A model generated the notes under the pieces. The model worked only from the letters and a program-made list of their open reading frames with translations. It searched no databases and was not told the DNA's origin. Source: Talaromyces rugulosus (taxonomy: Eukaryota > Ascomycota > Eurotiomycetes > Eurotiales > Trichocomaceae). Taken from it: 64,000 nt of DNA. The position numbers were made by a program, and so were the translations under genes. Below are positions 33,146-59,708 of the stretch, one piece after another (positions within the stretch are counted from its first letter, which is position 1; the number at the start of each line of letters is the position of its first letter). The stretch covers positions 5,208,001 through 5,272,000 of the forward strand of contig NC_049565.1 in NCBI RefSeq assembly GCF_013368755.1, in the 5' to 3' direction.

Positions 33146-34055
33146 AGTCTCCCACCTGGGGACTTCCCCGTGCTCTAGTCGACATTCAAAACCCCCCCTG
33201 ATTGTGGAGAAAACAGTTACCAAGGAACCGGTCGGCTTCACGGCCTGCGAGCACTCATCCCAGGTGGTGACTCAGGTATTGGAAGGGCCACTGCCATTGC
33301 GTATGCCCGAGAAGGCACCAAGGTTGCGATTAACTACATGCCGGAGGAGTCAGATGCACAGGAACTTGTTGACGTGCTGGAACCTAAGGGTCTTACAGTC
33401 GAGAGGATCCCCGGCAATCTACTCAACGAGACATTCTATGCTAAACTAGTCCACGAAGCTCACATGTGTCTTGGAGGCCTCGACATTCTTGTCAGTCAGG
33501 CTAGGTAGGTACCTACTTGGAGTTCCGTGGTCCGTCGAGAGAAAAGCTAACAAATCGATAAGCTTCTCAGGTTACCTTGATAGCCCAAACTATCAACCCA
33601 TTTCTAACCAGTCAACGGCTCAGCTTGAGCAAGTATTCCGCACCAACGTCTTCGCCGGCATCTTTCTGACTCGTGCGGTTGTGCCTCTTCTTCCCCGAGG
33701 TGGGAGTATCATATTTACCACGTCTGATATGGCAGCCGAACCCATACCCAACGGGGTTGTCTATGGCGCGAGCAAGGAGCTGTAGCACACACACATGGTA
33801 CGGGGCCTTTCACTGCAGCTCTTGGACAAGGCTATTCGGGTTAATGGCGTGGCACCCGGTATTACCTACACGCCTTTCATGGTAGCCTCTGGCCACACGA
33901 CGGAGACGATGGACATTGCAGCCAACGCGGTCCCTTTTGGCCGTATGGAACAGCCAGTCCAACTAGCACCAATGTATGTAGATCTGGCGGACCTAACGTC
34001 GACATTTGTGAGCGGAGAGATCTTTACGGCTGCAGGAGCATCACCTGGAATGTGA
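33146..34055 (+). pseudogene. short-chain dehydrogenase (YghA/glucose-ribitol dehydrogenase type) with two stops
   Basis: The frame gives CGENSYQGTGRL, then LIPGGDSGIGRATAIAYAREG, NYMPEESDAQELVDVLE, GGLDILV and, after a probable 58-base intron at 33505-33562, LDSPNYQPISNQSTAQLEQVFRTNVFAGIFLTRAVVPLLP. It continues with IIFTTSDMA, VYGASKEL, MVRGLSLQL, INGV-like RVNGVAPG and a tail to TGA 34053. This is the SDR group of bacterial YghA and fungal homologues with the PDxGExSYxGxGRL leader. TAG at 33176-33178 cuts the leader. TAG at 33783-33785 lies just after the catalytic YxxSK. TGG in the TGG(D)SGIG motif reads PGG here. No start codon was found. Non-functional as it stands. Confidence 0.8.
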
Positions 34056-35846: not shown

Positions 35847-37618
35847 TTATACTTCAATTGCAAGACGGATTCTGACAGGCCAATTCTGCTGCGCAATAGT
35901 AAAGTGACTGCGATGATCCCATTCGGCATCCGGGTGTTCCAATTCAAAGTCAAAATCTCGAAGAACCGTGGCAGTGATCTTCCCTATTTCCGCAAATGCG
36001 AACTGTTTTCCTGGACAGCCATTATATCCAATACCGAAAGTAATTAGATACTTCTCATACTCTGTTGCTTCGGCACGGAACCACCTTTCGGGACGAAACA
36101 CGTCGGCGTCATGTCCAAAATAACGTGAGTCCCTCTGGATTATAAAAGGGTTCACAGATAGAATAGTCTATTAAAGATCAGTTAGATATAATTTCCACAG
36201 GCTGACCTTGAGCTTACTCCTGGTTCGAAGAAATTATCACCAAGTTTTAAACCATCTTCTGGGACTACACGAGGCAGACCAAACGGAACTGGAGCAAAGT
36301 ATCTCAATGATTCTTTGATCTGATATTTTATCAGCCCATATAATAGAAAAAGAATATTTCATGTATGTAACGATGGAAGACACTCACACAAGCTTGAAGA
36401 TATTGCAACTGTTTTGCCTCTTCATGTTTGACGATAGAAGAAAGTTTCCCCGCCAATCGAGCTTCCTTCAGTTCCTCTTTGAGCTTTGACATGCATGCAG
36501 GGTTTTTAAGGACAAAATAGAAAAAGCTTTCCAATGCTCCAGTCATTGTCTCGGATCCAGCAATCGTGGTCATGCCTGACACAGCTAGTATTTCTCTCTC
36601 TTCCATTCGAGTGGGCCATTTCTTGTGGTTAGCAACCCATTGGGATACCATGTCAACGTTGGAAGACTTGTCGTCCTTTCTTTCCTGAACGGCTGCTGAA
36701 ACAGTGTGGAAAATATGCGCGTGAGGCTTAAGTCCAAAGTATCCTGCGAGTGGGCTGTGAAGTATAAATGGGTGAAGCCAATACATGTAACCCATAATGG
36801 CTTGATAAATCATCAAAAACCGCATGCTACCAATTGAATTATCAATATCCGCGCCTTCGCGAACGAATCCGAAATTCTTTGAAAACGTAAGTTCGCCTAT
36901 TATATCAAACGCAACGTAGTTGAGCCAGTGATCAAAGTGGATCGCATTTCCGGTTTTTGATAAGCGCATGAGCTGTTGCTGCAATTCCTGGATGCACTTG
37001 TCGACCCGACCTTCAGATTGAATCAAGTAGGATAGTGTATAACTACTGGCCGTGATGGACGAGCGTTCACGATGTCGCTTTGGATCACACTCAGACATGG
37101 GTGTTTGGTGAAACTTGTCTGGAACTGCCAGGGCCTGGTACCAGTTGGCCTGAATCAAGTTAGCTATATTCAACAAATGGTGTTGAATTGCGTATTTTTC
37201 TTTTTCTTTTTTTTCTTTTTTGCGAATTAGAATGGCTGACCTTGCGATGTGGCGGTGCGAGAATTGCCTTGATAGAATCAGGATGACTACAGGAAACTTC
37301 CTGATGACTTATTCGCACAAAGTCACCTATAGGTATGTAAGCCATGATTTCCATATGTTTAGTGTCAAGTTGAGACGATAAACTACCGTGTTTTTTGTGC
37401 TCCCGGAGCACAGCATATTCAATGTCTCCTTTTGCAACATGCCATATCTGCCATATAGCCGATACAGACGCTAGAAGCGGGCCTTTAAATTGAGATATCC
37501 CTGAGAAATATCGACGCCTCATAAGCATTACAAAAATTACAGCGATTATTGTAAAATATATCGACACGGCCTCTTGACGGCCGTAGGATAGGACATCGCC
37601 CAAAAAGGTAGAGTCCAT
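35847..37618 (-). CDS. cytochrome P450 monooxygenase
   Basis: Five exons (37618-37387, 37326-37241, 37149-36388, 36319-36218, 36167-35847) join in phase to 500 residues, with introns of 60, 91, 68 and 50 bases. The N-terminal membrane anchor is SIYFTIIAVIFVMLM. Then come SISQFKGP-like proline region, HQEVSCSHPDSIKAI and WYQALAVPDKF. The I-helix is MTTIAGSETMTGAL, with AGSETM in place of the usual AGxxTT. ExxR is in IKESLRY, PERW in DVFRPERWF, and the heme loop is FGIGYNGCPGKQFA with Cys445. The pattern suits the ascomycete P450 group that hydroxylates polyketide or terpenoid intermediates, but the substrate is unknown. It is the left-most intact gene of the 35.8-49.6 kb group. The start at MDSTFLGDVL gives a normal length; upstream in-frame ATGs would add an atypical leader. 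Confidence 0.9.
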
Positions 37619-38738
37619 ATTGATGTCGTACGAAAAGCAAAAAGATGACATGAATTTTGATGTGGTCAACGTCAAATCGGTATGTACACGGGTTTTACTG
37701 TTAACACTGGGAGAAAGAATGAATAATTTGGATGGACACCAAAGTCTGGTGTTACTATAACATTGAAAAGCATGGGTGGGTCGTCCGGCAAGTAGATTGT
37801 AGTCTTGGTGAAATTCATTTTCAATATTGAAAATTACATTTCGGTCATAAAACAATCTTTGCGTGAATGTGGCTAGCTGGCAATGTAATTCTACCAGATA
37901 GTCTAGCAGTAAATAATAGTATCAGTCTGGTCTCTAGCCAACAAGTACGTATCCGTCGATCTTACAGATATTATTATGATCACCATTGGCTCAATCGAGC
38001 TACTAGTCACTTCGTAAAAGGAAATGTTGATCTCTGACAAGGTGGTACGGGCGGATCACCCGAAAAACTGCATTTTCGACACTATGCGCCTATTCGGTCC
38101 AATGACGTACTGCATATCAATATTTTGGCCCTGTTTTTCGGCCCCATGCATATTCCAAACTAGGGAATCGATGCATGTGGCGAAATCTTACACATGTCAG
38201 CAAAGACTGATGTGATAGAATGCGAACTCCACCGTTCGTCCTTTACACTACATGATTATTGGGGGCCGCCAGCTCAGAGTATCTATGTAATAAATATTAC
38301 CCACAAAGTGCATGTGAATAAAGGTAACTCGACCGAGTCTAGCCCGCCAAGGTTATCCGGCACTTGAAGGCTGATAGATCATAGTATGGGCAATAGTCCG
38401 AGTCTATGGCAACTGCTTGTTAGAACTTACACCGCACTTCAGAATTCCAAGTGTCGGATGGGTTGTAACTTACGCCCTTCCGTAGTGGGACGTGGATTCT
38501 CGGCAAAAAGAGAATGGTGGGAATCCAGTTATCATGGTCATTTAATGTATAACTATTTATGGCAGGTTGTAACGAGCGAATTTATGCAAGTTCAGAATAG
38601 CAGCCCGGAACTGCGTAAGAGGTGTAAGATTGGAAGCGTTATTGTTACCTATTCTTGTATGTTACTCGGTATTACAGATGTATTCATTTCTTGGTTTGCA
38701 CTACTCCACACTCATGTAAAGGCGATTTTAGGTGATTC
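37619..38738. other. intergenic, upstream of the P450 gene
   Basis: No gene supported. A plus-strand frame at 38386-38880 partly runs antisense to the GMC gene and has no domain. Confidence 0.55.
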
Positions 38739-40664
38739 CTATGCAACCACGCCTTTGATCAGGTCCGCACCTTTCTCAGCCGTGGCGTACACGCTTGTTT
38801 GGATATTTCCACGCGGTATCAGTGGGAAGATACTGGCATCGCAAACCCGGACATTCTTAGTGCCATACACCTTCAGCTGATCGTCGACGACACCCCCGAG
38901 TTCTCGAGGTAGCATGGAGCAGGTGCTGGCCGGGTGATAGGTCGAGACCAGGGTATCACGCACGAGTTTCTTGGCCTCGTCTAGGTTATGGACGTGAACA
39001 TTGGGTGGGACTCGGCGGCCATCCTTTTTGAGGAGCGAGGCTAGGGGCTCGGTCTTGGCAATCGTCTCGACGAAGAGTAAGTGGCGTGCTAGGATCTCCA
39101 AATCGAGTTCATTGGAGAGATAATTGGGATCAATCATCGGCTTTTCTGATGGATCGGCCGATCGGATATGAATCGACCCACGAGAGAACGGGTGAGAAAG
39201 AGATGCGGCAATAGCTGTGTAATGACCGTCTTCTTTCATGCCAAACCAGTCTGTTGGCTTCGGCCCCGCGTGTGGACAGAGCTGCACGGCCGGTGAGAAG
39301 TATTGAATCGTGGAGTCTTTTCTATCTTCCACAATAGAGCGGAGAAGCTCATACTGCTTCTCCAAGCCCGGGTGTGAGTCTTTCTTGATGTGCAGGTTTG
39401 CATCTAGTATGCGGTCTAATTCTGGCCGCTCACCTTCTGCTGCGAATTCGCCCAGAGGGACGTAGGCTGACGTGATACAGCTTGATGTGAGCGGGCCGGA
39501 ATTGGTAGTCTGGTATAGTTGAATCAAACTGTCCAGTACTCCCGGCTCTTTTATGTACTCTATGGTGGGAATGCCATCAAGAACTTCATAACTGATGCTG
39601 GCAATAGCGTGGTCTTGCATGTTCTCTCCTACGTATGGATTGTCGACGACTGGTGCGATGCCAAGGGCCACGAGTCGTTTCGCATCCCCAATGCCAGACA
39701 GCTCTAGAAGTTGGGGCGACTGGATAGCGCCCGCGCAGACAATTACTTCTTTATTGGCACGCACTGTAAGATGATTTCCATCGGCGTTCTTGAACTGCAC
39801 GCCCGTGGCAGTGTCTTTGTCGAATAAGATTTTTTCAGCGAGGGCGTTCGTAATGAGCCTGAGATTAGGACGCTTGGCCACATCAGCACTATAGTAGGCA
39901 GTGCCGGCATGGTTTCGAGATTTCGTCTTTGGATGGACGGAGCATGGGTTAATATAGGCACCTGTCATATCCCCGGACGCTGGATCGCCTGTAGCCGCGA
40001 GACCAAGGTTGCGAAAAGTCTCGGGCCAAGCCTTTTGCAAAGGTGAATAAAAATCGTCTTCGGCGAAAGAGACTTGCACCGGACCTGTGGTACCCTGAAG
40101 GGTCTTGTCTAGATAAGCCAAGGACAGGTCTCGAGTTGTTTTGTCCGAGGGCTCCCCCAATGTATGGAATTTCCGGTAATAATGGCTCATCGTCTTCCAT
40201 CCCCAATCTTTGTTGCCCAACTTCTCCCACGCATCGATGCCAGCCTTGGATGGATACACGATCATACCATACTGGATGGCCGATGATCCGCCAACCACCT
40301 TTCCACGTGGATGACCGACAATTCGCCCATTCAGATGTTCCTGTTTGGGTTAGCATGAATGATTTCTACAGGTATCTGATATAAAACAGAAACGAAGAAT
40401 ATGATGTATCAACCCATCAATCGTATGACTTACTTGAGGCTCGGAAAGGAAACTCCAATCATATTCGGGTTGGTCATACAGAGCAGCCATCAAACCTGGC
40501 GTGTTGATCTTGGGATCATCAGGCCGGTGGCTGCCAGCTTCAATCACCAACACAGTTCTGTCTGCATATTCAGAGAGCCGGTTTGCAATGACACACCCTG
40601 CTGTCCCACCACCAAGAATGATGTAGTCGTAGGCATCCGAGTCGCCGGTAGTTTGAGAGGCCAT
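38739..40664 (-). CDS. GMC-family FAD oxidoreductase (alcohol oxidase/dehydrogenase)
   Basis: Exons 40664-40434 and 40340-38739 join in phase 0 (SEPQ to EHLNGR) over a 93-base intron, giving 610 residues. The FAD motif YDYIILGGGTAGCVIANRLSE starts at about residue 12. HPRGKVVGGSSAIQYGM is the GMC signature 1 region, and AGAIQSPQLLELSGIG is signature 2. The active-site pair is His546 (YHPASTCSM) with Asn589 (GNIQTSVYATAEKGA). There is no signal peptide, so it is probably intracellular, like GMC enzymes in metabolite clusters that oxidise benzylic or polyketide alcohols. Aryl-alcohol oxidase-type chemistry would suit a pathway with an aryl aldehyde made by the reductase at 46282 (inference). 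No lesion seen. Confidence 0.92.
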
Positions 40665-41816
40665 TTTTCCGTCTAATATCTCTACAATCGAATCTCAAAG
40701 AGAATTGGTATTGCTGATAAAACAGGTAGACAGCTACTTTTCGTCTCACCGTAAGCCGTAAGCTTTACGAGCTCGAACTGGGCAGAGGACGGTGGTTATT
40801 GATCCCTCGATTAGCTCCCCACATCTCACGTGGCCCTGGCGGCCTTGTGTCCCGTGGAGAATCGGAGGATATGGACAAAGAATTGCCAACTAATGGCCCC
40901 CAAGGAGCCTAAGCGCTAGTACTGGGCCCTGTCACTAAGTATGTACGTTGTACTACTATTGATCAAGGATAGTCGGACGGAGAAAAGAGGAGGATGATCG
41001 GCATTTTGACCGAATCCACGTTCTGTTATTTTATCGATACACTATCAAGTTTCTCTAGTGGGGTATATAGAGTCTATGCGCGTGTGGGATCACTTGTACG
41101 GAGTACACTCTATTTGCCCTTATCATATAACTTTATAGGGATGAATGGAATGGATGGAGGGAGGGGATGGTGCGGGGGATGCAGAAAAATGCAGCTCATA
41201 TGTGACACAACCGGCTATTACGCAATGATTTCCAAGGCTAGCCTGATTAATCAGTCCTTCAATAACCTACTTCGCTGCTACGTATCTATCTACGTACTAA
41301 TCTGTCTCACCCGACGCTCCCGCTTTAACGGTAGGGCGTGCATTAGTCTATGCAGGCCTCATGAATTCTGATCTTGTCAACTGACTCGGAGTAAATACTC
41401 AGCTAGCATTCCTTCATGGGCATTAAACGCACTGCGCAAATAATGGCAGCCCACTAATTAAATGTTCAATGCGCATATGTTAGCCGCAGGTCTGGGTTAC
41501 GATGAATAACCAGAAAGTCACATTAGTAATGACAATGGCTCTTCCACTAGTTAATGCACGACGTATGCAACTATGTAAACTTCATTACCGACACGAACAG
41601 TGCAAATCCTACCCTTTATTGGGATCCTTGTAAGATAGTGGTGAATGGTGATTTGCTTATGCCCTAGCACAGCCTATTGATCACTAACATGTGGCTCGTG
41701 GGGGCTTTACCTGCATCAAGTTGTCAGATAAGCGTTGGTTATTTATTCTTGGAATATGTAAGACACTGTTCTTCAATCTTACACATCGTGGTGGACTCCA
41801 AGCAGTTCAGTTCAGC
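40665..41816. promoter_or_regulatory. shared upstream region of the GMC and rhodopsin-domain genes
   Basis: About 1.15 kb between two divergent start codons, with no gene inside. Likely holds both promoters. A clear shared operator was not recognised. Confidence 0.4.
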
Positions 41817-43011
41817 ATGACTTTTTCATTGGAGAACCAGCGACAAAAATCGACTGTCGCTGTCGCCGTGGTATTCTGTGTACTCCCAACAATCTCATAC
41901 GGCTTACGGCTATGGAGTCGACGCATCCAAAAAGTGCTTTTGAATCCGAGTGATTATTGCGCCCTTGGAGCGCTGGTGAGCAAATTCGTTGCGCTGCGCT
42001 GTATCTTAAGTCTAATGACGAATGTCGAATATAGGTGTGCTGCTGGGCCATTTGCGGTCTCGCCATAGTCAATATCACTCATGGAGGCGTTGGTCTTCAT
42101 GCGAAGGAGGTTCCTCTATCTGCAGTTAAGGTGTTTATGGCCTCATTATATTCAATCGAGGTACTATGGGCCGTTGCCGAGGGCTTGATCAAAACATCCA
42201 TGTGCCTTTTATACATGGGAATCTTTCCCATGAGGTCTTTCCACATCGGCCTATACATTGCCATTGGAATCTGCAATACATTTGCGCTGATGGTCATTCT
42301 ATCCACTACTTTTATCTGTCTTCCCGTTAAGATGAGCTTCGATCCTACCGTGCAAGGCCACTGTGGCAATCGAAATGCTCTTTGGCTAATAATCGGCATA
42401 CTCAACATCCTGACCGATGTGTTGGTTGTTATACTGCCCATACCAGTTGTTTGGGGACTCCAGATCCCCCAAAAAAAGCGCATTGCACTTGTCGGAATTT
42501 TCAGTTTAGGATCATTGTAAGTAGCACTACCCTCGATCCAAATATAAACGCCAAATCATCCCCTAACCAGTCTTGTTATTCCAACAGCGTCTGTATTGTC
42601 AGTATGATACGACTGCAGTATCTTATGAAGGTTGATTTTACCGGCGATATTACCTATACCGTCGTCAACGCCGTTATATGGAGTTTGCTGGAACCTACCC
42701 TAGCGGTAACCGTCGGATGCATGCCGACATTCGGTCCGTTAATTCGCAGTTATATCAAGTCCTGGGGGAAAGGAAGCTCGAGTAATCATTTGAACCCAAG
42801 CAATGTATACCAAAGCAGTGCTACTGGACGGTTTCACCGGCTGCACGTCGGAAACTATCCAGAGATTCCGCTCAATTCTAGCGTGGCTAGTCCCGGGTCA
42901 TCTATTCCACCCCGAAAAGACTGCCTGGACGACTTGACAGACACGCAGCATGGGAATCTGGGTGAGAACAAGATAAAGGTACAGACAGAGTGGGAGGTTA
43001 CCAGCTCCTAA
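41817..43011 (+). CDS. rhodopsin-domain integral membrane protein
   Basis: Exons 41817-41975, 42035-42516 and 42588-43011 join in phase over introns of 59 and 71 bases, giving 354 residues. About seven hydrophobic helices are visible: VAVAVVFCVLPTISYGL, CCWAICGLAIVNI, VLWAVAEGLIKTSMCLLYM, LYIAIGICNTFALMVIL, LIIGILNILTDVLVVILPIPVVW, IALVGIFSLGSLVCIVS and AVIWSLLEPTLAVTVGCMP. The DxxVxxLPIPVVWxLQxPxxKK segment and the ExxxxxxxxCMPxxxP end are typical of the fungal rhodopsin domain (PF20684). The polar tail is cytosolic. Its function is not established; such genes recur in metabolite clusters. It is intact, whereas the paralogue at 30510-31848 is broken. Placed between the divergent GMC gene and PABA synthase. 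Confidence 0.85.
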
Positions 43012-43691
43012 GTCAACACGAATTACCTAAATGAAGCGATTTTTTTTGTGAGAGCTTTATTGCATTACATATTCCATATTTCATAATTTCCGTAACTATT
43101 AGCAGAAGACCTCATGCTTCTTCCTCACTCTAGCTGAGTATTCTCTAACATAACCCCGAGAGTTAGTTGCATGAGTCAGGTTATCACAAGCTTAGACGGC
43201 AGAAGTCCGTTCAATGTTGCATATCCAGTCCGACTATTGATAAGGGGCGATCAGCTCGTTCTAATAATGTGGTACCGTATGGTTGGAACCGCTGGTAATT
43301 ATGGACAGTACTCATTACATACGGTCTTGACCGTTACTTGAAAAACTCTAAAGATCGTTAATTTTGGTCGGGAACTGATCATCGATAGCCCATAAAGGCC
43401 AAAATACCAGGAACCCCACTAGTTAAGGGGCCCCTTTTTGGTACAGTGGTAATTTTGAGGTTGACACAAAGTCTAAGACCAAGACTAAATCGCGATCAAA
43501 GAGTGATGTTTTTGTAACCACACTGCTCTTCCCACCTTATAAAAACTAAGTAGAACTATTTTGTCTTTTCACAGATGTGCCTTGGAATATTTTCATTATA
43601 GAACCATACACAAGCCATACAAACCCTTCGACGGGAAGCTGCAACTGTCAAACCAAATCGCTTTTTGCTGTCGAAGACATACGTTGCAATC
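43012..43691. promoter_or_regulatory. upstream region of PABA synthase
   Basis: 680 bases without a gene. Holds an octamer-like GGGGCCCC stretch near 43428 and T-rich leader sequence before ATG 43692. Confidence 0.35.
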
Positions 43692-46073
43692 ATGTCGTTC
43701 AAACCGAGGATCCTATTTATCGATGCCTATGACTCCTTTTCCAATAATATTATAGCCCTCATTGAGGAAACGCTGCACGTCCTCGTAACTAAGATCACCA
43801 TTGACTCCCCCCTTCCTTCAAATCTGCGGGAGTCGTTCGCTTCTCTGATAATCGGACCTGGCCCAGGCAGTCCATACGTGCCCTCTGATATTGGCTGCAT
43901 TAAAGACGTCTGGAACCTCCCAGATGACAAACTCGTTCCTGTTCTCGGTGTTTGTCTTGGCTTTCAGAGTTTGGTTGTGAATTTTGGGGGCATTGTGAGA
44001 CGGCTACCATATCCTCGCCATGGAATCGAGACAGAAATACGTACTTGCAATGGGTCTATCTTTGAACGAATCGAAACATTTTCATCGGTGCAATATCACT
44101 CTCTCTACGGATCTCTAGACGATACGCAGGGGTCCCCGGAAGAGAAGGATCTCTGGAGTCCTCGCCATACATGCATGAGCCTAGTCCCGCTCGCTTGGGA
44201 CATTGATCATTCTTATTCCTGTGCTCCTCCTACGCCCGAGGACTCTAGGGCAGAGTGTGGGATCCTCAACCCGTCGCACATTCTGATGTCGGTTAAACAT
44301 ACCACAAAGCCCTTTTACGGCATTCAATTTCACCCAGAGTCGGTCTGCTCAAGCGAAAAGGCTAGTCTTGTTGTCTCCAACTGGTGGGAGCTTGCGAAAC
44401 GGTGGAACCAGGAACACCGCAAGATTGATATAAACATGGAACCTGCCAATACCAGCCAGTTTAGTACTCGATCCATCAACGTCGGAACCTTGAATATACA
44501 CTCGATACGTCAGCAACTTCTTCACGATTTCGGCGATGAAATAGTCATTCTGGACTCGGAGATGAGCCAGGATTCTCCCATGGGAAATTATAGCATCATT
44601 GGATTCATCTATACAGACACACTGAAGATCTCGTACAACACAGGTCGTGAGCATGTATATGTACAAAAGGGATCGCAAACCACAGCACAAAGCCTGAGTA
44701 GCTATGGAGGCAGTGTTTTCCCCTTTCTCAAGGAGTTCATGGAGAGTAGACGGCAATTACATGACAAAGGTGACTCTCCATTCTGGGGCGGTCTCATGGG
44801 ATACATCAGTTATGAAGCATGTCTGGAGACATTGGACATTCCATCGGCGACAAAGCCTAATCGCCCAGAGATCCAGTTCGCATTTGTCGAGCGCAGCATT
44901 GTAATCAACCACGCTGCGCGAAGTCTCCACGTTCAAAGTATCAAACCAAATGACCACGAGTGGGTTGATGTCGCAATCACCACGTTAACACGCCTCGCCC
45001 GATCCGAACCTTTTTCTTTGGATGAAATCAGCAAAGGTGCATCATCAAAAATGCAATCAGAGATCTCCACAACGCTTTCAGATGTAAAAAGTCACAAAAC
45101 TTCGACATCTTCGTCTCCACCTACTCCAGTAGAAACATTGTTTACAGCACAGCCCCAGTCAAAATTCACACTGCCTACTGAGCAAGAGTACCGAGATAAA
45201 ATTCGAAAGTGTCATGCTGAGATTAGGCAAGGCAATTCATACGAATTGTGCCTAACTGGCCAAACAACTATCAACATGCCCGGGCCCTCTACCTCTTCCT
45301 GGTCGCAATATCTCCGCCTACGCGCCGTAAATCCGGCTCCCTTTGGTGCATACGTGAGAATTGGCCCTATTACAATAATGTCTTCTTCGCCTGAGAGATT
45401 TCTTTCCTGGACGAGACCCAACGCGCACGATGAATCCATCTGTCAGTTTCGACCCATCAAAGGCACTGTGAAGAAGCGACAGGTCAACCCTGATGGGAGT
45501 CTTGGTTTTGTTGATCGATTAATCGCGACAAAATTCCTATCGACGCCAAAGGAACGCGCAGAGAACTTGATGATTGTCGATCTTATCCGCCATGACCTCT
45601 CTGGTGTTGTTGGCTCTGGTAATGTGCGCACGACTTCATTGATGCAGGTTGAGGAGTATGAGACGGTATACCAATTAGTAACAGTGATCGAGGGCACGCT
45701 GAGACCAACTTATATCGAGCCAGCTTACCGACCTCAGAAGTCCGGTATCGACGTCCTGGGGGCCAGCCTTCCTCCTGGCAGCATGACCGGGGCCCCCAAG
45801 AAAAGATCCTGCGAATTGCTGCAACAGATCGAAGACACACCGCGATCCATTTATTCTGGCGTGCTAGGTTATATGGATGTGGGAGGTGGTGGCGACTTTT
45901 CGGTCGTCATCCGGACTGTATACCGTTGGGATGATGAGATAGGCGATGATGATAGCCAGACATGGAGAATCGGCGCTGGCGGCGCAATCACTGACCTGAG
46001 CGACGAATTGGGCGAGTGGGATGAAATGCATACTAAGCTCGATGCTGTCCTTCGGTCATTTAGACAATCGTGA
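43692..46073 (+). CDS. pabaA: bifunctional 4-amino-4-deoxychorismate (PABA) synthase
   Basis: A single-exon gene of 793 residues from MSFKPRILFIDAYDSFS. An earlier in-frame ATG at 43665 adds nine residues. The N-terminal glutamine amidotransferase has the oxyanion GPGPGSP, nucleophile Cys88 in GVCLGFQS, and His214/Glu216 in QFHPESV. From about residue 260 the chorismate-binding domain follows, with WGGLMGYISYE, FRPIKGTVKK (Lys590), ERAENLMIVDLIRHDL and PPGSMTGAPKKRS. The PIKGT lysine marks aminodeoxychorismate synthase, since anthranilate synthase has PIAGT, so the product is 4-amino-4-deoxychorismate for p-aminobenzoate. Fungal enzymes of this fused form normally serve folate synthesis. Its place between a rhodopsin-domain gene and an adenylation-reductase gene suggests a second copy that feeds a PABA-derived metabolite, but a sole housekeeping copy cannot be excluded from one window. 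Confidence 0.95.
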   Translation: MSFKPRILFIDAYDSFSNNIIALIEETLHVLVTKITIDSPLPSNLRESFASLIIGPGPGSPYVPSDIGCIKDVWNLPDDKLVPVLGVCLGFQSLVVNFGGIVRRLPYPRHGIETEIRTCNGSIFERIETFSSVQYHSLYGSLDDTQGSPEEKDLWSPRHTCMSLVPLAWDIDHSYSCAPPTPEDSRAECGILNPSHILMSVKHTTKPFYGIQFHPESVCSSEKASLVVSNWWELAKRWNQEHRKIDINMEPANTSQFSTRSINVGTLNIHSIRQQLLHDFGDEIVILDSEMSQDSPMGNYSIIGFIYTDTLKISYNTGREHVYVQKGSQTTAQSLSSYGGSVFPFLKEFMESRRQLHDKGDSPFWGGLMGYISYEACLETLDIPSATKPNRPEIQFAFVERSIVINHAARSLHVQSIKPNDHEWVDVAITTLTRLARSEPFSLDEISKGASSKMQSEISTTLSDVKSHKTSTSSSPPTPVETLFTAQPQSKFTLPTEQEYRDKIRKCHAEIRQGNSYELCLTGQTTINMPGPSTSSWSQYLRLRAVNPAPFGAYVRIGPITIMSSSPERFLSWTRPNAHDESICQFRPIKGTVKKRQVNPDGSLGFVDRLIATKFLSTPKERAENLMIVDLIRHDLSGVVGSGNVRTTSLMQVEEYETVYQLVTVIEGTLRPTYIEPAYRPQKSGIDVLGASLPPGSMTGAPKKRSCELLQQIEDTPRSIYSGVLGYMDVGGGGDFSVVIRTVYRWDDEIGDDDSQTWRIGAGGAITDLSDELGEWDEMHTKLDAVLRSFRQS

Positions 46074-46281
46074 TCTATAGCATTTTGTTTGGACCGCCGT
46101 GTTAGTGGAAATTATTCTAGTACCCCCTATCATTTAAGTCTGATCCGTTTTGGCTCACGTCTTAAGATTAATTTTTTTTTTTTTTTTTTCTAAAAAAAAC
46201 GGATATTTATATAAAGAAATCATGCATACACGCGGTTTGAACGTATTACCGTCTCATCTTGCAACGTTGAAGCTGATCATA
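46074..46281. terminator. 208-base tail-to-tail spacer with T18 / A8 run
   Basis: PABA synthase (+) and the adenylation-reductase gene (-) converge here. T18 at 46172-46189 followed by C and TA8 can serve both 3' ends. No canonical signal was tested. Confidence 0.35.
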
Positions 46282-49200
46282 TCACTTGCTTTCAAATTCT
46301 CTGTAGCCCCTGGCATATATCTGCTGCATCCATGATTTTGTCCATTTTGCCATACAAGAAGGTTGAATGGCCCCTAGCTTTGCTAGTGTTGGACTTTCCT
46401 CGACTGTCTGCATCGTATCCAAAATAGAACATGCGCGATCAGAAGCTGTATTCTCTTTCCCTAACCACTTGTAAAACCCGATGAGCTTGACGGCTGGGAC
46501 TTGTGTTACAGCAAGTGAATCCACTTGGTTGAGAATGCTGGACTCAGACGACTGTAGTTTTTGCAACCATTCATGATAAGGTACTACTTTTATAGAGCTG
46601 TCATCGACAAGAGTTGAACCTCCAGTATGGGGGCCAGAGTTTGATGAGAATGAACACAGAAGCTCGACTACCTCGGGAACAAGCGTCGACCATTGATTCG
46701 CCGATGGATTGGATACATGGTAAACACGAGCGCCACTGTTTGGCTCCTTTGGAGAATTCTTGTTACCTGTAAAGAGTAACTCTAGAATCACGTTGGCGAG
46801 AATGTCCACTGGCACCCAATCAACTTCACCTCGCCCAAGGTCCGTGTTTCTCAACGCAGGAAATTGGGCCGGAATCACGCCTAGGTGCTGTGAGCTGATT
46901 ACTAGACTCGGAAGCCACTCATTGATATTCCAAACTCCCGGACCCTGGATTGGCCCTGCGACTTGACCCAGTCGGGCAATGGATATATCTAGTTCGAGCT
47001 TCTTGGAGGCGTCGTCGAGCAATATCTCGGCCACCCATTTAGATTGTCCATAGCCGTTCAGGCTAGTGACGGCCGGGTCACCGATTATCTTTTCCGGTAT
47101 AAACGTGTCTGGATAACCTTGGACAGCACTGCTAGACGAGAGGAATAAGATGGTTGGCGAGTGTCTGGCACTGGCAGCGAAGGAGGACAGATGCACAATG
47201 CCGTCCAAATGAGCCTCAAATGACCCGAGGTGAAAATTGAAGTCAACCGGCCATGCACAGTGAACAACCTTTGTAACTTGAGCCTGCAATTGGGCAAACA
47301 CGGTATAATCCAATCCAAATTTCCCATTGCTAGTGGTGACATCTCCAGTGTGAAACGTAACTCGAGCGGCCGGAAACTCGGCTGTTAAGTGGCGATCAAA
47401 ATTATTTTTCACTTGCCGGTCTCGAGCATCCATTGAACGATTGAGACAGTATATGTGTGCCACTGTCTTCTCTTTCACAAGTGCATTGAGGAAATACGAG
47501 CCGATTGTCCCCGTAGATCCCGTTAACAGCACCACATGGCTGGTTCCCTGGGGGGAGCCAGGGGAGCGAGGCTGTATCTGTATTCCATCCAGCTGCCTTC
47601 GGTATCCTGAAATTGCGTCGAGCATAGAATTCTCGTGTTTATGAAGTGCCAATTCACCGACGACTAGAATGGAGGCAAGGTCATTGATAATAGGATGACT
47701 GTAAACCGTGCTAATACTGATGTTGCACACACGTTGCAGGTTTCGCACCAGCTCTATGGCCAAAACGGAGTCCAAGCCTTGGTGGAACAGATTTTCTTGT
47801 CTATCTATTTTCCCCACACGAAGAATCGCACACAATTCTTTCTCGATGGACAAAGCTACGAAGTTCTTGTCATGCAATGCAATGGCCGTGGCCATTTCAG
47901 AAATGGGCTGAGCAGTAGCTCCTTGACTAGCCAGTTTGTAGATTTGACGGATTTCGTCCCCGTACGAGTCTATTGTTGATTTCCGAATGACAGTTCCCTT
48001 TGGAGTCATCTGGATTGGTTTTTCTGGATGCGCGAAGAGAATGCAAGCCTTTGAAACGCGGGCAAATGAAGGAACGGCAGCATTTGCAGCGCTAATCGTG
48101 AGCCAAAGGCGTTCAATAACCGCATCACTGCCTTCAGCCGGAATTAACTCGGTGTTATTGAGTTCCACCAAGAGAATCGTGTGGACTTGTTCAGCGCCAA
48201 TAAGAATGCAGGATTTGACTATCGGGTCGGTTGCCACAGCTTCTTCGAATCCAAGAGGGTTGACCTTCTCACCATTCAATAAGACCAGGATATTGTCTTT
48301 CCGCTCACAGTAGGCCCATAAACCAGGCTTATGTGGATGCGGAGTCCATAGATCCTTGGTCCTATACTTGTCGGCGTCCTTAAAAATAGCAAAACAGCCC
48401 GACTCGTATTCTACAGAAGGCGTCCGTTTCAACACAAACTCGTACATTGAGTCCGAATGATGTTCCATTACTGAGCCGCCCCGCTCGTCCCATTGAATAT
48501 ATTTCCAGTCCGACCATGCACGATCTGTGGGAGCGATCTGCCGGGCATGACCAAATTCTGTGGCGCCATATATGGGAAACATATACACCTTTTCAGCCAC
48601 AGCATCTCCCAGTCTCTTCGGCAGGTCGCCGCCTGAATAGGCAAGCGTATCCAGTTGCGAGGTGATATGGTTAAGTAAATCAGTGTCTTTGCTGATTTCT
48701 TCGACTGTTGACGGGGCTAATATGGTAGCATTGACCCGTGTATATCGCAATACCTCTGCAACTCCCTTGGCGGTGGGTGGAGCGTTGGTCAATGGGATGA
48801 CCAGGTTGGTTCGAGCAAACGAAACACTAATCAAGCCAAAGAATACCCCTATAGCGTGGAATAACGGCATTGGTAAAAAGATTCGCTTGCCGTGCATTCG
48901 CAACATCTGATTTTCATATCCCTCTGGTGGCACGTTGTGGATGATGTTCGCAAAGGCAGTGACAAGAGCGTGTGGCGCGATGATTGGCTTGGGTAGACCA
49001 GTTGAGCCAGACGTATGCATGACAACAAAGGGCTGGTCCTTGGCATTGTCATATGCTTTATCGTAAGGAAAGTGTGCATGTTGTTTGTCAAGCAGCTCTT
49101 CGATTGATGGTGGCTCTAACACAGTAATCGGGTATACGGAGTCAACTTCTCCCAAAATCGCAGGATGCGGCGCCGGGGAAATTACAGTGGTGCAGTTTGT

Positions 49201-49596
49201 AAGCTTGAATAGATTGACATTGGCATCGACATTATTTCGAGGGGATATCAGTAATAACTATCTGTTGGTGTCAGAAATCCATGTCATTGCCATGGTGTTC
49301 GGCTGTGGGCTTTCTACCTTGTACCCTGTTTTGATTGCAGCAACAACCATGACCGGATAGCGCAAGTCATTGGGGCCAATATACGTTAGGGTGCCAAATT
49401 CCTGACTTGTTCCGAGAGCATTCTTAATCCAGTTGGCAGCGCCATTCACTGCGTTGGCGAATTCTTTAAATGTGGTCTCTCGGAATCCATCCGCGTATGT
49501 AGTGTTTGATCTGGGAAACGCAATCCAAGGAGTTTCTGGGTTAGTCTTGGCGATGCCGTCGATGACATTCGGTAGCAGTTGTTGATTTGATGTCAT
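46282..49596 (-). CDS. NRPS-like carboxylic acid reductase (adenylation-thiolation-reductase)
   Basis: Exons 49596-49318 and 49257-46282 join in phase 0 (AAIKTGYK to LLLISPRNN) over a 60-base intron, giving 1084 residues. The adenylation domain (about 1-500) has VVMHTSGSTGLPKP near 175, PIYGATEFGH, YRTKDLW and LVLLNGEKVNPLGFE. The carrier domain has LFHQGLDSVLAIEL with Ser590 as phosphopantetheine site. The NAD(P)H reductase domain (from about 665) has LLTGSTGTIGSYF and GYGQSKWVAE (Tyr-x-x-x-Lys). Enzymes with this A-T-R order activate a carboxylic acid with ATP, tether it as thioester and release the aldehyde. Fungal relatives act on aryl or amino acids. Next to PABA synthase, an aminobenzoate-type acid is a plausible substrate (inference). 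The start is the first ATG before the conserved N-terminus. Confidence 0.93.
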
Positions 49597-51924: not shown

Positions 51925-52253
51925 TGTGAAGTGCCAGGCTCGGGGATGCCGATCCGGCTTACAAAGGCCTGCATATCCTCCGCGGGTTGAGTTGATACAT
52001 CACAAAGGATGCATCTACCCCTCATGCTCGGTGAATATAACCCTGTTAGGAAGTAGGATCTCATCTAGATCAGGCTTATAAGCTTGAGACCCCATCCCCC
52101 AGGATGAAGGGGCTCAAGCGGTTTATTCTATATCAATATAACCCATATCTATTTACTTTATATACTGCCTCGACTCCTAGTAGGAACCCCCTCAGAGCCC
52201 AGTAGGTTCCAACTCCCTCATATATAAGTCTTCCAGACACCACCCACTTTACA
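51925..52253 (+). repeat. 5' LTR
   Basis: TGTGAAGTGCCAGGC to CCACCCACTTTACA, 329 bases. Has a TATATAAG box near 52231 and the same sequence as 59380-59708 by eye. Confidence 0.95.
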
Positions 52254-52295
52254 TTATAAACCGCTTCCACGAGGATCCGAATCGACTCCGAGACG

Positions 52296-53438
52296 ATGGT
52301 GACTACACGAGGCATGACTTCTCCAACACCGGATGAACCGGGAACTGTTCCAGTTCCTAACCCGGGATTTGTACACGAGGAGGAAGAGGCTCAGGACTAT
52401 ACCAGTACTGAACCGGCGCAGGATGCGATTTCTGAAGAATTACCTCCACAAGCTGTTTCACAGGTCAACATGACCATGGAGATGCTGCAGGCCCTTATAT
52501 AAGGACTCAGAACCACTGGACCGTCGCACGCGACTACCAGCGAACGTCGTGACACCAAGGTTCCAGACCCCAAGCGCTTCGCTTCAAAATCAATCAAGGA
52601 ATTCGAGGAATGGATTGAGGACGTGGAAAACAACATCTCAAGTCGTTCCCGGTCCTACCCCGACGAAGCAAGTAAAGTCCAATATGCTGCCGCTTGGCTT
52701 GATGGAGACCACCGCATCCAATGGAGAGAGAAGAAAAATTCGATTAACTTGCAATCTTTTACCTTTGACGATTTCCGAACCTGGTTGGAGGACCAGATTG
52801 AATCCCCCCAGAACCGAGGAATCAACAGCGCTATGGCTTTATTAAGCCTAACATAGTCAAATGGACAAGACCCTGAGGCTTTTTATTCCAAATTCTCGAT
52901 TCTCTACGAGAAAGCGAGAGAAGGAAGTGGCGGGCCTCCACCGGCCGAAGACCTCTTCAAATATCGAATCTTCCTGGCAAAGCTGTTGCCAAAGATCTGT
53001 TTGGATATCACGAGAATGGGTACGCTCCCAGCGAAGCTTCCGGACCTAATTACTACCGCTCAACGATTGTATCAAATCGAGAAGCAAGAGTGGAGATTGG
53101 AAAGGAAAGCCGAAAATGAGAATAACAATCGCTCCGGAGGCCAAGGTCCGACTCGGAACCAAGAAGGTTCCGACTCGAAGCCGACTCGAAAGCGAAAATA
53201 TAGATCAGATCACAACGACCGAGAGAAATCTCAGAAGAAGCAGAAATCCTTCTCAAAGAACAAGGACAAGTCGACAGTGATCTGCTATCGTTGTAATCGT
53301 ACTGGCCATTATGCCATCGAGTGCAAAGCTACCAAAACCGCTGAAGGGAATCCAATTTCATCCCCGAAGCTAAATGCTACCCATACAAAAAAGGAAAAGG
53401 AGACTGAGAAACAGTCTGACAAAGAGCAAACCCAATGA
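52296..53438 (+). pseudogene. retrotransposon gag, interrupted by stop codons
   Basis: Starts at ATG 52296 (MVTTRGMTSPTPDEPG), 43 bases after the LTR. Capsid-like helices (KEFEEWIEDVENN, WLDGDHRIQW, FRTWLEDQIESP, AFYSKFSILYEKA) lead to a basic linker and one zinc knuckle, CYRCNRTGHYAIEC (CX2CX4HX4C), at about 53283-53324. The frame is broken by TAA at 52500-52502 and TAG at 52854-52856. It ends at TGA 53436-53438, after which protease continues in the same frame. Neighbouring residues suggest these were CAA, CAG and CGA codons, i.e. C-to-T changes. It would form the particle shell of the element. Confidence 0.85.
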
Positions 53439-56400
53439 GGACTGCCCGTGGTTGCCAGTTTGAGGAAGGAGGAAGACTTGAAGAACTTCGCTATGCCAAT
53501 TCATATAAGATTGAACCTTCCCGAAGCAAGATCCGAGGTGACCGCCATGCTCGACACTGGAGCAGACGAGAATTTTATATTATATAGGTTCCTACTCGAA
53601 GCCGGCTGGGAGCTGACTCGGAACCTAGAACAACCTGTCAAATTCGTTGACGGGCAGGTCACTACTTGCTTCGCTATCCTCAACCTTGACACCACGGTTA
53701 TTGACACAAAGGGGAGAGAAAAGAACTATCCCCTATGGTTCTATGTAATCAACATGACCGGATTTGAAGCCATCCTAGGGAAGACCTGGCTTTGGGACGA
53801 AGATCCTATGATCCTTACCTGGCGCGGGCAAAAGTGGCAATTTTGAAAAAGTAAAGAATTGTCCATTAAGATTAAAATTGAGACGCTTTGACGCTTTGGA
53901 CTGCTGGCAAGAACAGCGACCACGTTTTTTCTATCTGCAGAAGCAGTCGAACCAGAAGAAGGAAAACTTCTGGATATTTATAACGAGTATACCGATGTAT
54001 TCTCAGAAAAGGAGGTGGTAACTCTGCCTCCTGAGAATGTCAATCATGAGATTATGTTGCAACCAGGTGTAAAGGGCCCTCCTTATGGACCCCTTTATCC
54101 ATGCTCGGCGAAAGAACTGGAACACCTGTGCACATACCTAGAAGAGATGCAGCAGAAGGGTTGGATCCGAGAATCAACAAGCCCAGTTGGTGCACCTATT
54201 TTATTTGTAAAGAAAGCAGACGGCTCTTTACGCGTCTGTGTGGATTACCGCGGTCTTAATGAGATTACAGTCAAAAACCGTTATCCCTTATTAAGGATAG
54301 ATGAGATGCTGGACCGATTGATGGGATCCAAACGCTTTACTAAGATTGATCTCCGGGATGCATATCACCGGATAAGAATTAAGCGCGGAGACGAGTGGAA
54401 AATGGCTTTCCGAACTCGGTATGGGCACTATGAGTATTTAGTTATGCCATTTGGGTTGACTAATGCCCCCGCGACCTTTCAATCTTATATTCATGATGCC
54501 TTGAAAGGCCTTATTGATGATTTTGTAATCGTTTACCTTGATGATATCCTGATTTATTCATAATCAGAAGAAGAACATGTGAAGTATGTTAAACAGGTTC
54601 TGCAGAGGCTCAGAGACTACTGGCTATATGCAAAAGCTTCAAAGTGTAGTTTCCATCAGCAGAGGGTAAAATTCCTAGGCTATGTCATTGACGAGCAAGG
54701 AACCTCGATGGACACTGAACGAACTGAAGTTATTTGGAACTGGCCTGAACCAAAGTCTGCAAAGGAGATCCAAGTTTTCCTGGGCTTTACTGGGTTCTTT
54801 AGAAAATTTATAAGAAGCTTTTTAACCATAACAGCACCGCTGTCTGAGATGCTTAAAGGAGATCCTAAAATGGGGACTTGTGGGTTCAAACTGACTCCGG
54901 AAGCAAAGAAGGCTTTTGAAGAGCTTCGTGACGCTTTCAAAAGTCCTTTGGTGGTAAGACACTTTGACCCAGAGAAGAGAATTAAGATTATTATGGATGC
55001 CTCGAAGGTTGGAAGAGGAGCCATACTTCTGCAACCAGGCTCCGATACGGATCCTATTAGGACCTGGGTCGGCTCCGACTCGGAACTGATTAGAAACCGA
55101 GTATACTGGCATCCAGTTGCTTTCTTAAGCCAAAAGTACAGCGAGACAGAACGTCGTTGGCTGGTGCATGACCAGGAATTGGGAGCAATTGTATTTGCTT
55201 TCCAGAAATGGTGTCACTACCTTGAAGGTAGCAAGCACTCCATCAGGGTGCAGACAGACCATAATAATTTAACTTACTTCTTCACTGCGAAGAAGTTGAA
55301 TGCAAAGCAGGCCAGATGGGCTCAGCTTCTAGCGGCTTATGATTTCGAGATTGAATATAAGCCTGGGGTAAAGAACCCTTCAGACGCTCCATCCCAACGC
55401 CCGGACTTTTTTGAAGACGGGGAGGGAGAAGAAGATGTCGGATTATTACTGACTTTGCAACACAAATTGAAATTGAACGCATTGGAGTCCGGCATAAGGC
55501 TGGCAAGCTTGATATCTCTAGAGGATAGTCCCAGTAGGGCAAGCTTATCCCGAGGGGAGAGCCCCAGTACGGATTTGCGTATAGACGGTCAGGTTTCCGG
55601 AGCCTGCCGTTGCCAGAGAAGACTTGCACTTGGAGCAATGCAAGCCGAGGACGTTTTTGGCTCTTTGACGCCGTCAACTGCGGACCTAGTACGGAAGCTG
55701 CAGGAAGGGGACGCCTTTTCTCAGCGGAAGATGGTTCCGGCGGACGGGATTTCCAAATCCAAATTAACGGACTCGCCTAGGAACCGAGTCGAAGACGACT
55801 CGAAGGCAACTAGGAACCTACCTAGGAACCGAGTCGGAAACGACTCGAAGGCAACTAGGAACCGAGTCGGGGACTCGAAGGCGGCTTGGAGTACTAAGAA
55901 CGGTCTCCTACATTACCACGAGAGGGTATATGTGCCAGAGGATATGGCTCTGCGGAGTGAACTCATGAAGTTGCATCATGACCACCCATATGCAGGTCAT
56001 TTCGGCGTCGCAAGAACTCTTGACTTAATAAGTCGAAAGTATTATTGGCCCAGGATGGACCAAGACATAGACGAGTACGTTCGTACTTGTGAGATATGTC
56101 AGCTTGCAAAGGTGCGAAGGCACCGACCTTATGGTCAATTGCAATCATTACCGGTCCCCTCAGGACCGAGTAAAAGCTTGTCTATGGACTTCGTCACAGA
56201 CCTGCCTCCGAGCAGACTTCAGAAAGAAGTTTATGACTCTATATTGGTCGTTGTCGACCGCTTCACTAAGCTGGGCACCTATATTCCTTGTAAGAAGAGT
56301 ATTAATGCTGAAGAACTTGCAGATATAATAACCGAGAGAGTTTTCAACATCTACGGCTACCCGGATAGCATCGTTACTGACCGAGGATCGCTTTTCACTA

Positions 56401-57248
56401 GCGGATTCTGGTCCGAACTGATGTATCAGTTCGGAATCAAGCGACGATTGAGCACTGCTTTTCACCCACAGACGGACGGCCAGACGGAGAGATTGAACCA
56501 GGTTATGGAACACTATCTGCGCTGCTATACGAACCAGCGACAGGATGACTGGGCGCAGCATTTGTCAGCAGCTCAGTTCGCTTATAATAACTCGAAACAT
56601 GCAAGCACTAGGACGACCCCACTTAGGGGCCTAGTCGGCTTCGACCCGAAGCCTCCCTTTGATAACCATGTTGAACCTTCCACGGTTCAATCGACGCAAG
56701 AGCGCGTCGAGAAATTAAAAGAAATCAGGGAGCAGGTGAAGCTTCATCTTGAAGAAGCAACCCAGGTGCAAGCCACCTATTACAATAAACGTCACCAACT
56801 AAAAGAGTACGCTGTGGGTGACCGGGTGCTGTTATCCATGAAAAACCTCAAATCCTTTAGGCCAAACAAGAAGCTTGACTTCCCATATGAAGGAAGCTTT
56901 GAGGTTATCGAAAGGATAGGAAAGCAAGCTTACCGGCTCCGGCTACCGGCGAATTGGCGTCGAATTCACCCTGTTTTCCATGTCTCCTTATTAGAACCGT
57001 ATTATCCACGGAGAGGAGAAGAAAGTGAACGGGAACCACAAGCGATTATTGTGGATGACGAAGAAGAATGGGAAATCGAAGCCATCGTCAACCATCGCAC
57101 CTACCGCGGACGAACCAAGTACTTGGTAAAATGGCTTGGATATCCTTCTTATGAGAACAAATGGTTGGATAAAGAAGACCTCGGCAATGCAAAGGAACTC
57201 CTTGAGGAATATCACCAGTCGGCAGCCTACAAAGCAAAAAGAAGATAG
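53439..57248 (+). pseudogene. retrotransposon pol: protease, RT, RNase H, integrase, chromodomain
   Basis: Same frame as gag. Protease: AMLDTGADENF (about 53540). Reverse transcriptase from 54015: [47 protein letters not shown]. RNase H: VHDQELGAIVFA and TDHNNLTYF. Integrase: HHCC finger (HHDHPYAGH, CEICQ), then DFVTDL, VTDRGSLF and FHPQTDGQTERLNQ for the DDE triad. Chromodomain at about 57060-57230: EIEAIVNHR, YLVKWLGY, ENKWLDKEDL. Stops at TGA 53844-53846, TGA 53889-53891 and TAA 54561-54563 fall within protease-RT, the last directly after YLDDILIYS. From 54579 on it is open for 889 codons. A linker at about 55770-55890 repeats NRVG/DSKATRN three times. Confidence 0.92.
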
Positions 57249-57682
57249 ACCCTTTTCCTAAGAACAGGTTTTTTGGTCTTCATCACTTTGGGGCCTCCTA
57301 CCCGAAGCCGACTAGGAGCCACAAAGGCTCCGACTCGGAACCGTCCTAGTATATAAATATGACCTCCTCACCTCCACTACACCCCTTGGCACCACCAACA
57401 AGGATTACTACTTGGCCATGAGAGGGAGCCGGCTGTGCTCCGGAATCACTCTTCCTGTTTTCCCACCGGGTTTCAGGTTTAACGAGGATTCTACGAGGAA
57501 ATCGCACGACGAGAAAGAAGATTTCATTATTCAAAAAAACAAAAGAAAACCAACCACCAAGACTAAACTACTGTCCCGAAGGACCACCCCACGCAGGAGG
57601 ACTCCACAAAACACCGCCATGGCGGCGGGCGGCAGGGGAAGCAGGAGCAGCAGGGACAGCGGCAGGCGCAATGCCAAAATAT

Positions 57683-59000
57683 TCATTCTATTACCATCAG
57701 TACTAGACTAGGCAAAAGCCCCATTGAAAGCAAACGCCAAAAAGGGATTACACTTACTTGCCGATTCAAGATTTGAAGAATCTGGCCCATGGTGCCTTCA
57801 ATCCGGTCAAGGCGGGCTTCCAATGCTGCGACTCGGTCCGACTCGGACGGTCCCAGCGAGCGAATCCGCGATTGAGAGGGTGACGAGGATGGCTCCCTAC
57901 GGAGCGTCCCCTCGACAACCCGAACCCAATCGGCGGCTGCCCGGATGGCCTCTGGAGACACGCCCAAGCGGAACATTGCTTGCACAATGCGGAATGAGGC
58001 CAACTGCGAGTCTGGTATAGAATCGCATTTTACTCCCAAACAGGAACAGCGACAACACTTTTCCGTTGGCAGACGCCGCACGCAGAAATTCTGGTGGCGG
58101 CCCACCAGTTTTGCACAACGCAAACAGGGGTGGCTCTGCCAAAGTACTAAGCGTTCATCCGCCACAGGGACGGCACCAAAGTACGCAGGAGGGACCCTCG
58201 CCAATCGAGCTGACTCCTGACTAGTCAACCGATGTAGACCGCGTGCTCCGAGCGCACACAAAGGAGCCCCAGATTGAGGGTCATAGTATCCCGAAAAGTC
58301 TGGCTGGTCGCCAGACAGAAGGACATCAGGGATACCCGGGGCAGAAGCCACCGGCACAGGCGTCTCAGAGGCGGCCTGTGTATGACGAGGAGTCTCATCG
58401 GCATCCTCCACCATGTTTTCAGCCAAGGGAGCCGAAGTGGCATCCCCGGCAGGGCCAGACTCAAGGCGATCGGTCATGTCGGCATCGGGCTCAAGGGACG
58501 ACAAGTCCGAATCTTCCTAAAAATTGGATATACCTATTAGTATCTACTACATATACTATCCACCTAGGCCCCGAGACGGAGCCTACTAGGAGGGGGAAAC
58601 CAAGGTCGATTTGAGAAAGCCTATATCGAACTACTTACAACAGCGAGGAGTGCGTCAAGCTCCTCGGTGGTGACGGCAGGGGGAGTAAAAACATTCTCCT
58701 ATTATTCAAACCTGTTAGCCAATGATCTAATAACTGCTGGATGACTATTACGAGAAGTCCCAGAGACAACTGCGGTAACTCGGGATACCAAAGCACTATG
58801 CCATTCCACTAGGAACCGACTCGAAGCCGACTAGGAGCCTCTCAAGGAAGCACTTACCAGAGCAGGGCGGCGAGCACCGCGGCCACGACGAGTAGAGCCC
58901 GAGGGCCCACGACGGGTTGGGGTTTTCTACAAGAACGTCAGGATAGGTCAACATGCACCTGAACTGGGAGACGAACGGGCTTGGGGGCGCGGGGGGCCAT
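57683..59000 (-). CDS. spliced antisense gene inside the Gypsy element (Cys-rich, coiled-coil protein)
   Basis: On the strand opposite gag-pol, four exons all join in phase 0: 59000-58959 (MAPRAPKPVRLPVQ), 58926-58858 (KTPTRRGPSGSTRRGRGARRPAL), 58698-58639 (ENVFTPPAVTTEELDALLAV) and 58516-57683. The three introns (32, 159 and 122 bases) have GT-AG ends, the middle and last with GTAAGT donors. The 32-base one is unusually short. The predicted 334-residue protein has a basic Arg-rich N-terminus and an acidic middle. A Cys cluster follows (HPCLRCAKLVGRHQNFCVRR, then CCRCSCLGVKC), plausibly zinc-binding, then a coiled coil (VAALEARLDRIEGTMGQILQIL). I recognise no family. Unlike gag-pol it has no stop codon, which argues for selection or recent gain. 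A nucleic-acid-binding accessory or antisense regulator of the element is possible (inference). Confidence 0.6.
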
Positions 59001-59366
59001 TGCTGGCAGAGGCAGAAGCAGAACAGGACGAAGAAAAAAGCTTGATTCTAAGAACTACCATGATTTAAGATTAGCAAAATGTCCGTGATAGCTTACAACT
59101 CGAAACCAATCGACAGGGGAATCAACAAGGGGCACATACCAAGGTGTTGCTGCGCGTGGATAAGGAACATCCCATGTTTATTTTTGGAGTTCCCATATGT
59201 CAACACACGCGTGGGTGGACCCACCCACTGCTGCACCAAACCGCCTTCCGAATCAGGAAACCGTGATGCCCTTTGTTTTGATTGGCCGGCTGCCGCAGCA
59301 ACCACCGCGTCAGACATGAGGTTATTCCCAACCTACGGATACAAGGTCTCGAGGACGATCCCTTCC

Positions 59367-59379
59367 AGGAGGGATGGAT
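59367..59379 (+). other. polypurine tract before the 3' LTR
   Basis: Purine-rich AGGAGGGATGGAT directly precedes the TG of the LTR, the expected plus-strand primer site. Confidence 0.7.
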
Positions 59380-59708
59380 TGTGAAGTGCCAGGCTCGGGG
59401 ATGCCGATCCGGCTTACAAAGGCCTGCATATCCTCCGCGGGTTGAGTTGATACATCACAAAGGATGCATCTACCCCTCATGCTCGGTGAATATAACCCTG
59501 TTAGGAAGTAGGATCTCATCTAGATCAGGCTTATAAGCTTGAGACCCCATCCCCCAGGATGAAGGGGCTCAAGCGGTTTATTCTATATCAATATAACCCA
59601 TATCTATTTACTTTATATACTGCCTCGACTCCTAGTAGGAACCCCCTCAGAGCCCAGTAGGTTCCAACTCCCTCATATATAAGTCTTCCAGACACCACCC
59701 ACTTTACA
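59380..59708 (+). repeat. 3' LTR
   Basis: 329 bases, read as identical to the 5' LTR, followed at once by CCAGC. Confidence 0.95.

Follow-up and report, generated by a model that had tools for sequence, protein, structure and literature searches.

A subtelomeric locus of Talaromyces rugulosus with a putative pairing of an accessory PABA synthase and a carboxylate reductase

Introduction

Bacteria can use a spare aminodeoxychorismate synthase to feed a secondary metabolite, as in the chloramphenicol cluster. An extra aminodeoxychorismate synthase is also described for the bacterial dnacin B1 cluster (PMC7570522). Fungal carboxylate reductases of the adenylation-thiolation-reductase (A-T-R) architecture are a separate group of described systems: five residues are essential in NcCAR, and no specificity code is deducible for the fungal enzymes, which accept many acids (PMC5826065). 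According to PMC9605436, 84 fungal reductases fall into seven clades, and those of clade VI act on aryl acids and accompany a non-reducing polyketide synthase. The same source describes the known FUB8 enzyme as reducing trans-2-hexenoate, and PnlA, which has the fungal A-T-R architecture, as converting 4-amino-2-chlorobenzoate (22.6%) and 3,4-diaminobenzoate in traces.

Here we describe a Talaromyces rugulosus locus that resembles both kinds of system in part. Like the two bacterial clusters, it has an extra aminodeoxychorismate (PABA) synthase as a putative supplier, but the locus is fungal and the partner of the synthase is a carboxylate reductase; no genes for p-aminophenylalanine, as in those bacterial clusters, were noticed by eye in the frame listings. 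The reductase has the domain order of NcCAR, AtCAR, StbB and PnlA and, unlike the clade VI reductases of PMC9605436, has no non-reducing polyketide synthase beside it. Among the matches listed in a survey by title of the open-access literature, none described a fungal cluster of a PABA synthase and a reductase. An earlier note on this DNA had proposed a five-gene cluster leading from chorismate through p-aminobenzoate to an aryl aldehyde or alcohol. Our best reading is narrower, namely a variant of the fungal carboxylate-reductase clusters that has a PABA synthase as partner.

Results

Five intact genes near a contig end

The window, by which we mean the whole analysed stretch of 64,000 nucleotides, comprises bases 5,208,001-5,272,000 of contig C5 (5,343,016 bases) in a genome of 35.8 Mb in six contigs. 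It lies near a chromosome end, 71-135 kb from the end of that contig. Five adjacent genes (Table 1) each gave a single open frame after splicing, with GT..AG introns of 50-93 nt, and the Pfam family names agreed with the earlier assignments for all five, so that the description of these genes as intact stands. The two core genes, those of the PABA synthase and the reductase, converge tail to tail and are separated by 208 bp. In the spliced translation of the GMC oxidoreductase, the catalytic His and Asn were present at the positions previously given. The textbook haem-binding motif of P450s carries Arg at a position where the window P450 has Asn (36009-36038).

Table 1. Genes and other features of the window (positions counted from its first base)
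Feature	Position	Strand	Description
Sialidase-like frame	8103-9323		open, with Pfam match
NlpC/P60 peptidase	10419-11129		10422-11129 open, with Pfam match; secreted-looking, mostly bacterial kind
Frame resembling the peptidase	12650-13126		resembles N-terminal half of the NlpC/P60 peptidase (by eye)
Short-chain dehydrogenase	22934-23887		open, with Pfam match
Short-chain dehydrogenase frame	33179-34052		in-frame TAG at 33783; frame change possibly an intron
Cytochrome P450	35847-37651	-	five exons, 511 aa; Pfam p450 185.8 bits; KESLR and FGIGYNGCPG motifs
GMC oxidoreductase	38739-40664	-	exons 40434-40664 and 38739-40340, 610 aa; Pfam GMC_oxred_N and GMC_oxred_C; His546/Asn589
Fung_rhodopsin-domain membrane protein	41817-43011	+	three exons, 354 aa; Pfam Fung_rhodopsin 202.3 bits
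PABA (aminodeoxychorismate) synthase	43692-46073	+	core gene; no intron, 793 aa; Pfam GATase, Anth_synt_I_N, Chorismate_bind
A-T-R carboxylate reductase (NRPS-like)	46282-49596	-	core gene; exons 49318-49596 and 46282-49257, 1084 aa
LTR retrotransposon	51925-59679		two identical 300-nt repeats (51925-52224, 59380-59679); between them, matches to reverse transcriptase, RNase H, integrase and chromodomain
AT-rich stretch	60001-63000		strong GC skew, 0.37 to 0.42; between inverted arms 58784-59708 and 62671-63595 (86%)

A spot check did not establish the companion claim that most other metabolic genes in the window are broken: the second dehydrogenase frame is interrupted by a TAG, but three further frames with a Pfam match, those of the sialidase-like protein, the peptidase and the first dehydrogenase, are open. 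On the other side of the five genes, 2.3 kb beyond the reductase, lies the LTR retrotransposon, which is probably a recent insertion because its 300-nt repeats are identical; the AT-rich stretch looks like an older, point-mutated element. Large frames that look by eye like those of an NRPS (locus L050, C5:5198260-5202829) lie 5 to 10 kb to the left of the window and include a thioester-reductase match at C5:5201881-5202555, and there is a ketoacyl synthase at C5:5190768.

Three PABA synthases in the genome, one of them in the window

We compared the window PABA synthase with the folate aminodeoxychorismate synthase represented by the curated fungal model TIGR01823. As in that enzyme, the amidotransferase and chorismate-binding halves are fused, and the score of 578.7 bits exceeds the cut-off of 442.55. 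Amidotransferases use Cys, His and Glu as catalytic residues, and a lysine in the PIKGT motif distinguishes aminodeoxychorismate synthase from anthranilate synthase, which has alanine there. The window protein carries the amidotransferase motifs GVCLG at 86 and QFHPES at 212, and Lys590 in PIKGT, just as had been claimed, with K at this column in each of the 123 sequences aligned. The motifs and the curated model thus support the prediction that the enzyme makes aminodeoxychorismate.

A second PABA synthase had been named as something to look for, since a single copy would have spoken against a cluster. Searching the genome for the chorismate-binding family gave four matches: one is an anthranilate-synthase-like frame on C6, which reads PIAGT, and the other three are fused PABA synthases, of which C2, C3 and the window have one each (837.4, 680.2 and 578.7 bits with TIGR01823, all above the cut-off and the window copy lowest). 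With three copies in the genome, the single-copy objection falls away and the window enzyme can be spare. The C2 copy is likely the folate PABA synthase, because the frames around it look by eye like housekeeping genes (glucosamine-phosphate acetyltransferase, aspartate aminotransferase and fumarase). BLASTP identities of the window copy are 36% with the C2 copy and 41% with the C3 copy; the corresponding figures from the genome search are 41% to C2 and 35-61% to pieces of C3. In the region of the C3 copy, a second accessory PABA synthase (C3:2420500-2440000), an arylamine N-acetyltransferase (PF00797, C3:2426175-2427031) is encoded some 1.5 kb away from the synthase. At least three P450 matches are also nearby, and ketoacyl-synthase genes flank the region at a greater distance; this locus may be another PABA-derived cluster.

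The earlier note had placed the aminodeoxychorismate lyase outside the window, and this proved correct: none of the 13 genome matches to the aminotransferase class IV family falls within it. Among the eight of these loci that were read, we chose by eye a candidate on C2 (L015), whose best solved relative is the yeast aminodeoxychorismate lyase 4k6n (Abz2-like; E 1.7e-13). Given this resemblance, an enzyme encoded elsewhere in the genome could probably complete PABA.

In the protein search with the window PABA synthase (best 120 of 1694 relatives), the closest was P0121 (88%, source lgn), from a contig of 6,736 bases. It was followed by six sequences at 58-63%, from Penicillium canariense, P. 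canescens, Aspergillus tanneri and three lgn proteins, and then by a JGI protein at 50%; below 50% came unnamed metagenome proteins and named ones, mostly from lichen-forming fungi. In a tree rooted on the C2 copy, the window copy grouped with P0121 (support 1.0); the groups of seven, eight and nine sequences that enclose this pair had supports of 0.841, 1.0 and 0.996, and deeper nodes on its path had supports from 0.026 to 0.995. Judged from these comparisons, the window PABA synthase is deeply diverged and belongs to a well-supported separate clade with few Eurotiales members.

An intact A-T-R reductase with few close relatives

The earlier identification of the reductase as an intact A-T-R enzyme was borne out. 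Its Pfam domains follow the order AMP-binding, AMP-binding_C_3, PP-binding and NAD_binding_4, that is, adenylation, carrier and reductase domains, and it retains the five NcCAR-essential residues, which were placed by motif rather than by alignment to NcCAR, as His227, Glu423, Ser590, Tyr829 and Lys833.

Among the best 120 of 621 relatives of the reductase, only two were close: P0001 (84%), on a JGI contig of 25,552 bases, and P0002 (83%), from lgn, on a contig of 6,736 bases. Identity then drops to 37%, and no named relative in this set exceeds that value; some of those at 37-33% carry the name FUB8. The nearest paralogue in the same genome is 36% identical. The adenylation motif columns were tabulated for 118 relatives besides the three close sequences. 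Of these 118, 112 have Ala two positions past the essential His, where the window enzyme has Ile229; not one has Ile. None of the solved structures compared aligned well enough for a substrate to be named from the adenylation pocket. By analogy, the A-T-R family appears to tolerate an amino substituent para to the carboxyl group, because PnlA converts 4-amino-2-chlorobenzoate and traces of 3,4-diaminobenzoate; in the part of PMC9605436 consulted, we found no report of 4-aminobenzoate as a PnlA substrate.

The core pair seems to be kept in one other genome

The closest PABA synthase, P0121, and the reductase P0002 both come from lgn, and each lies on a contig of exactly 6,736 bases. As source and size are the same, we take the two contigs to be one; this length suffices for the 5.9-kb pair. 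The equal contig sizes therefore suggest that the pairing seems to be kept in one other genome. For the remaining close reductase, P0001, no JGI PABA synthase on a 25,552-base contig was among the best 120 of 1694 matches; its partner may be absent, too short for the length filter or subsumed in a different 90% cluster. P. canariense, P. canescens and A. tanneri, whose PABA synthases are 58-62% identical to the window copy, are not named among the best 120 of 621 reductase relatives, and the PABA synthase clade thus seems to be used without the window-type reductase as well.

Membership of the flanking genes

Of the wider proposal of a five-gene cluster, the core was supported, since the PABA synthase and the reductase appear to be a true pair. 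Membership of the GMC oxidoreductase is doubtful. Among the matches listed, the best relative of this oxidoreductase (best 120 of 3914) was UA08_01057 of Talaromyces atroroseus, at 91% identity, and this species had no row in the best 120 of 621 reductase or the best 120 of 1694 PABA synthase relatives. The GMC gene hence occurs where a close reductase or PABA synthase was not seen. The P450 may be a member and is a candidate by adjacency. Genome-wide exon matches numbered at least 143 for the rhodopsin domain (150 of 177 candidates scored), 40 for GMC (43 of 43) and at least 106 for P450 (92 of 312, the window P450 itself not among them); the rhodopsin-domain gene, from so common a family, is probably not diagnostic of a cluster.

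Other signs of a larger unit were sought in the window. It contains none of the 77 ketoacyl synthase matches of the genome (78 of 78 candidates scored), the nearest of which starts 16.5 kb to its left, some 63 kb away from the reductase; there is therefore no neighbouring polyketide synthase to provide an aryl acid. Scoring 146 of 397 candidates for a Fungal_trans regulator gave no match within the window. Across four non-overlapping promoter regions the longest shared word was 13 nt (41394 and 43130), matched or exceeded in 50 of 300 shuffles. An apparent excess of 9- and 10-mers common to the five promoters was dropped, as the GMC and rhodopsin promoter stretches overlap. By Pfam, none of the five genes encodes an enzyme for condensation or ester formation.

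Discussion

We tentatively favour, at somewhat less than even confidence, a two-gene accessory core that would supply PABA and turn an aminobenzoate into the aldehyde, with tailoring optional; a pathway of all five genes is probably too wide. The diverged window PABA synthase would, from its motifs and the curated model, convert chorismate and glutamine to 4-amino-4-deoxychorismate, from which the Abz2-like lyase on C2, a single genome match, would release p-aminobenzoate. The reductase, to go by its motifs and position, would then adenylate an aryl acid, for which p-aminobenzoate or one of its derivatives is the most economical choice, load it on the carrier domain as a thioester and release it as the aldehyde with NADPH. 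The adjacent P450 and GMC enzymes might modify the product. The substrate of the reductase, its product and any part for the P450 or GMC enzyme are what we infer here, and an oxidase next to the reductase could undo its work, which counts against the pathway. The fuller proposal, in which a dedicated PABA synthase directly feeds the carboxylate reductase so that p-aminobenzaldehyde-derived, perhaps N-oxidised, metabolites arise from chorismate instead of a polyketide, is more doubtful.

The PABA synthase and reductase could also form a unit in which the substrate of the reductase is a different acid, whether fatty, aryl-aliphatic or amino acid-derived, and PABA is joined to the product independently, for instance through an amide or ester bond. 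The broad acid range of fungal reductases and their lack of a deducible code (PMC5826065) would allow this, as would the isolation of the window reductase, which beyond P0001 and P0002 has no close relatives and, at 37-33%, some named FUB8. We nevertheless regard it as rather unlikely, as the window offers no second, polyketide-type gene to make such an acid and the five genes include no condensation enzyme and none that forms esters. That there is no pathway, and that genes with roles of their own lie together by chance in a gene-rich subtelomeric region, is in our view unlikely: the size of the rhodopsin-domain, GMC and P450 families, the 91% GMC relative in T. atroroseus and the lack of a significant shared promoter word all speak for it, but it leaves the equal contigs of P0121 and P0002 unexplained.

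In fungal clusters, a duplicated target enzyme is a known pattern, and the window PABA synthase might accordingly be a self-resistance or back-up folate enzyme against a product that hits PABA synthesis. For the abyssomicins, inhibition of the chorismate and folate pathway is described (PMC6100094). At 36% identity to the C2 copy and in a separate, well-supported clade, however, the window enzyme is further diverged than expected of a recent target duplicate, and we consider this explanation very improbable. Compared with the folate enzyme, the window protein shares the fused halves and the PIKGT lysine but is one of three copies, has the lowest score and stands in its own clade.

If the accessory core does supply the reductase, the locus would represent a shikimate-fed way to fungal aryl aldehydes, as opposed to the clade VI systems, in which the acid comes from the polyketide synthase next door (PMC9605436). 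It would also tie an accessory clade of PABA synthases, found in a small number of Aspergillus and Penicillium species and, probably, in Talaromyces, to secondary metabolism.
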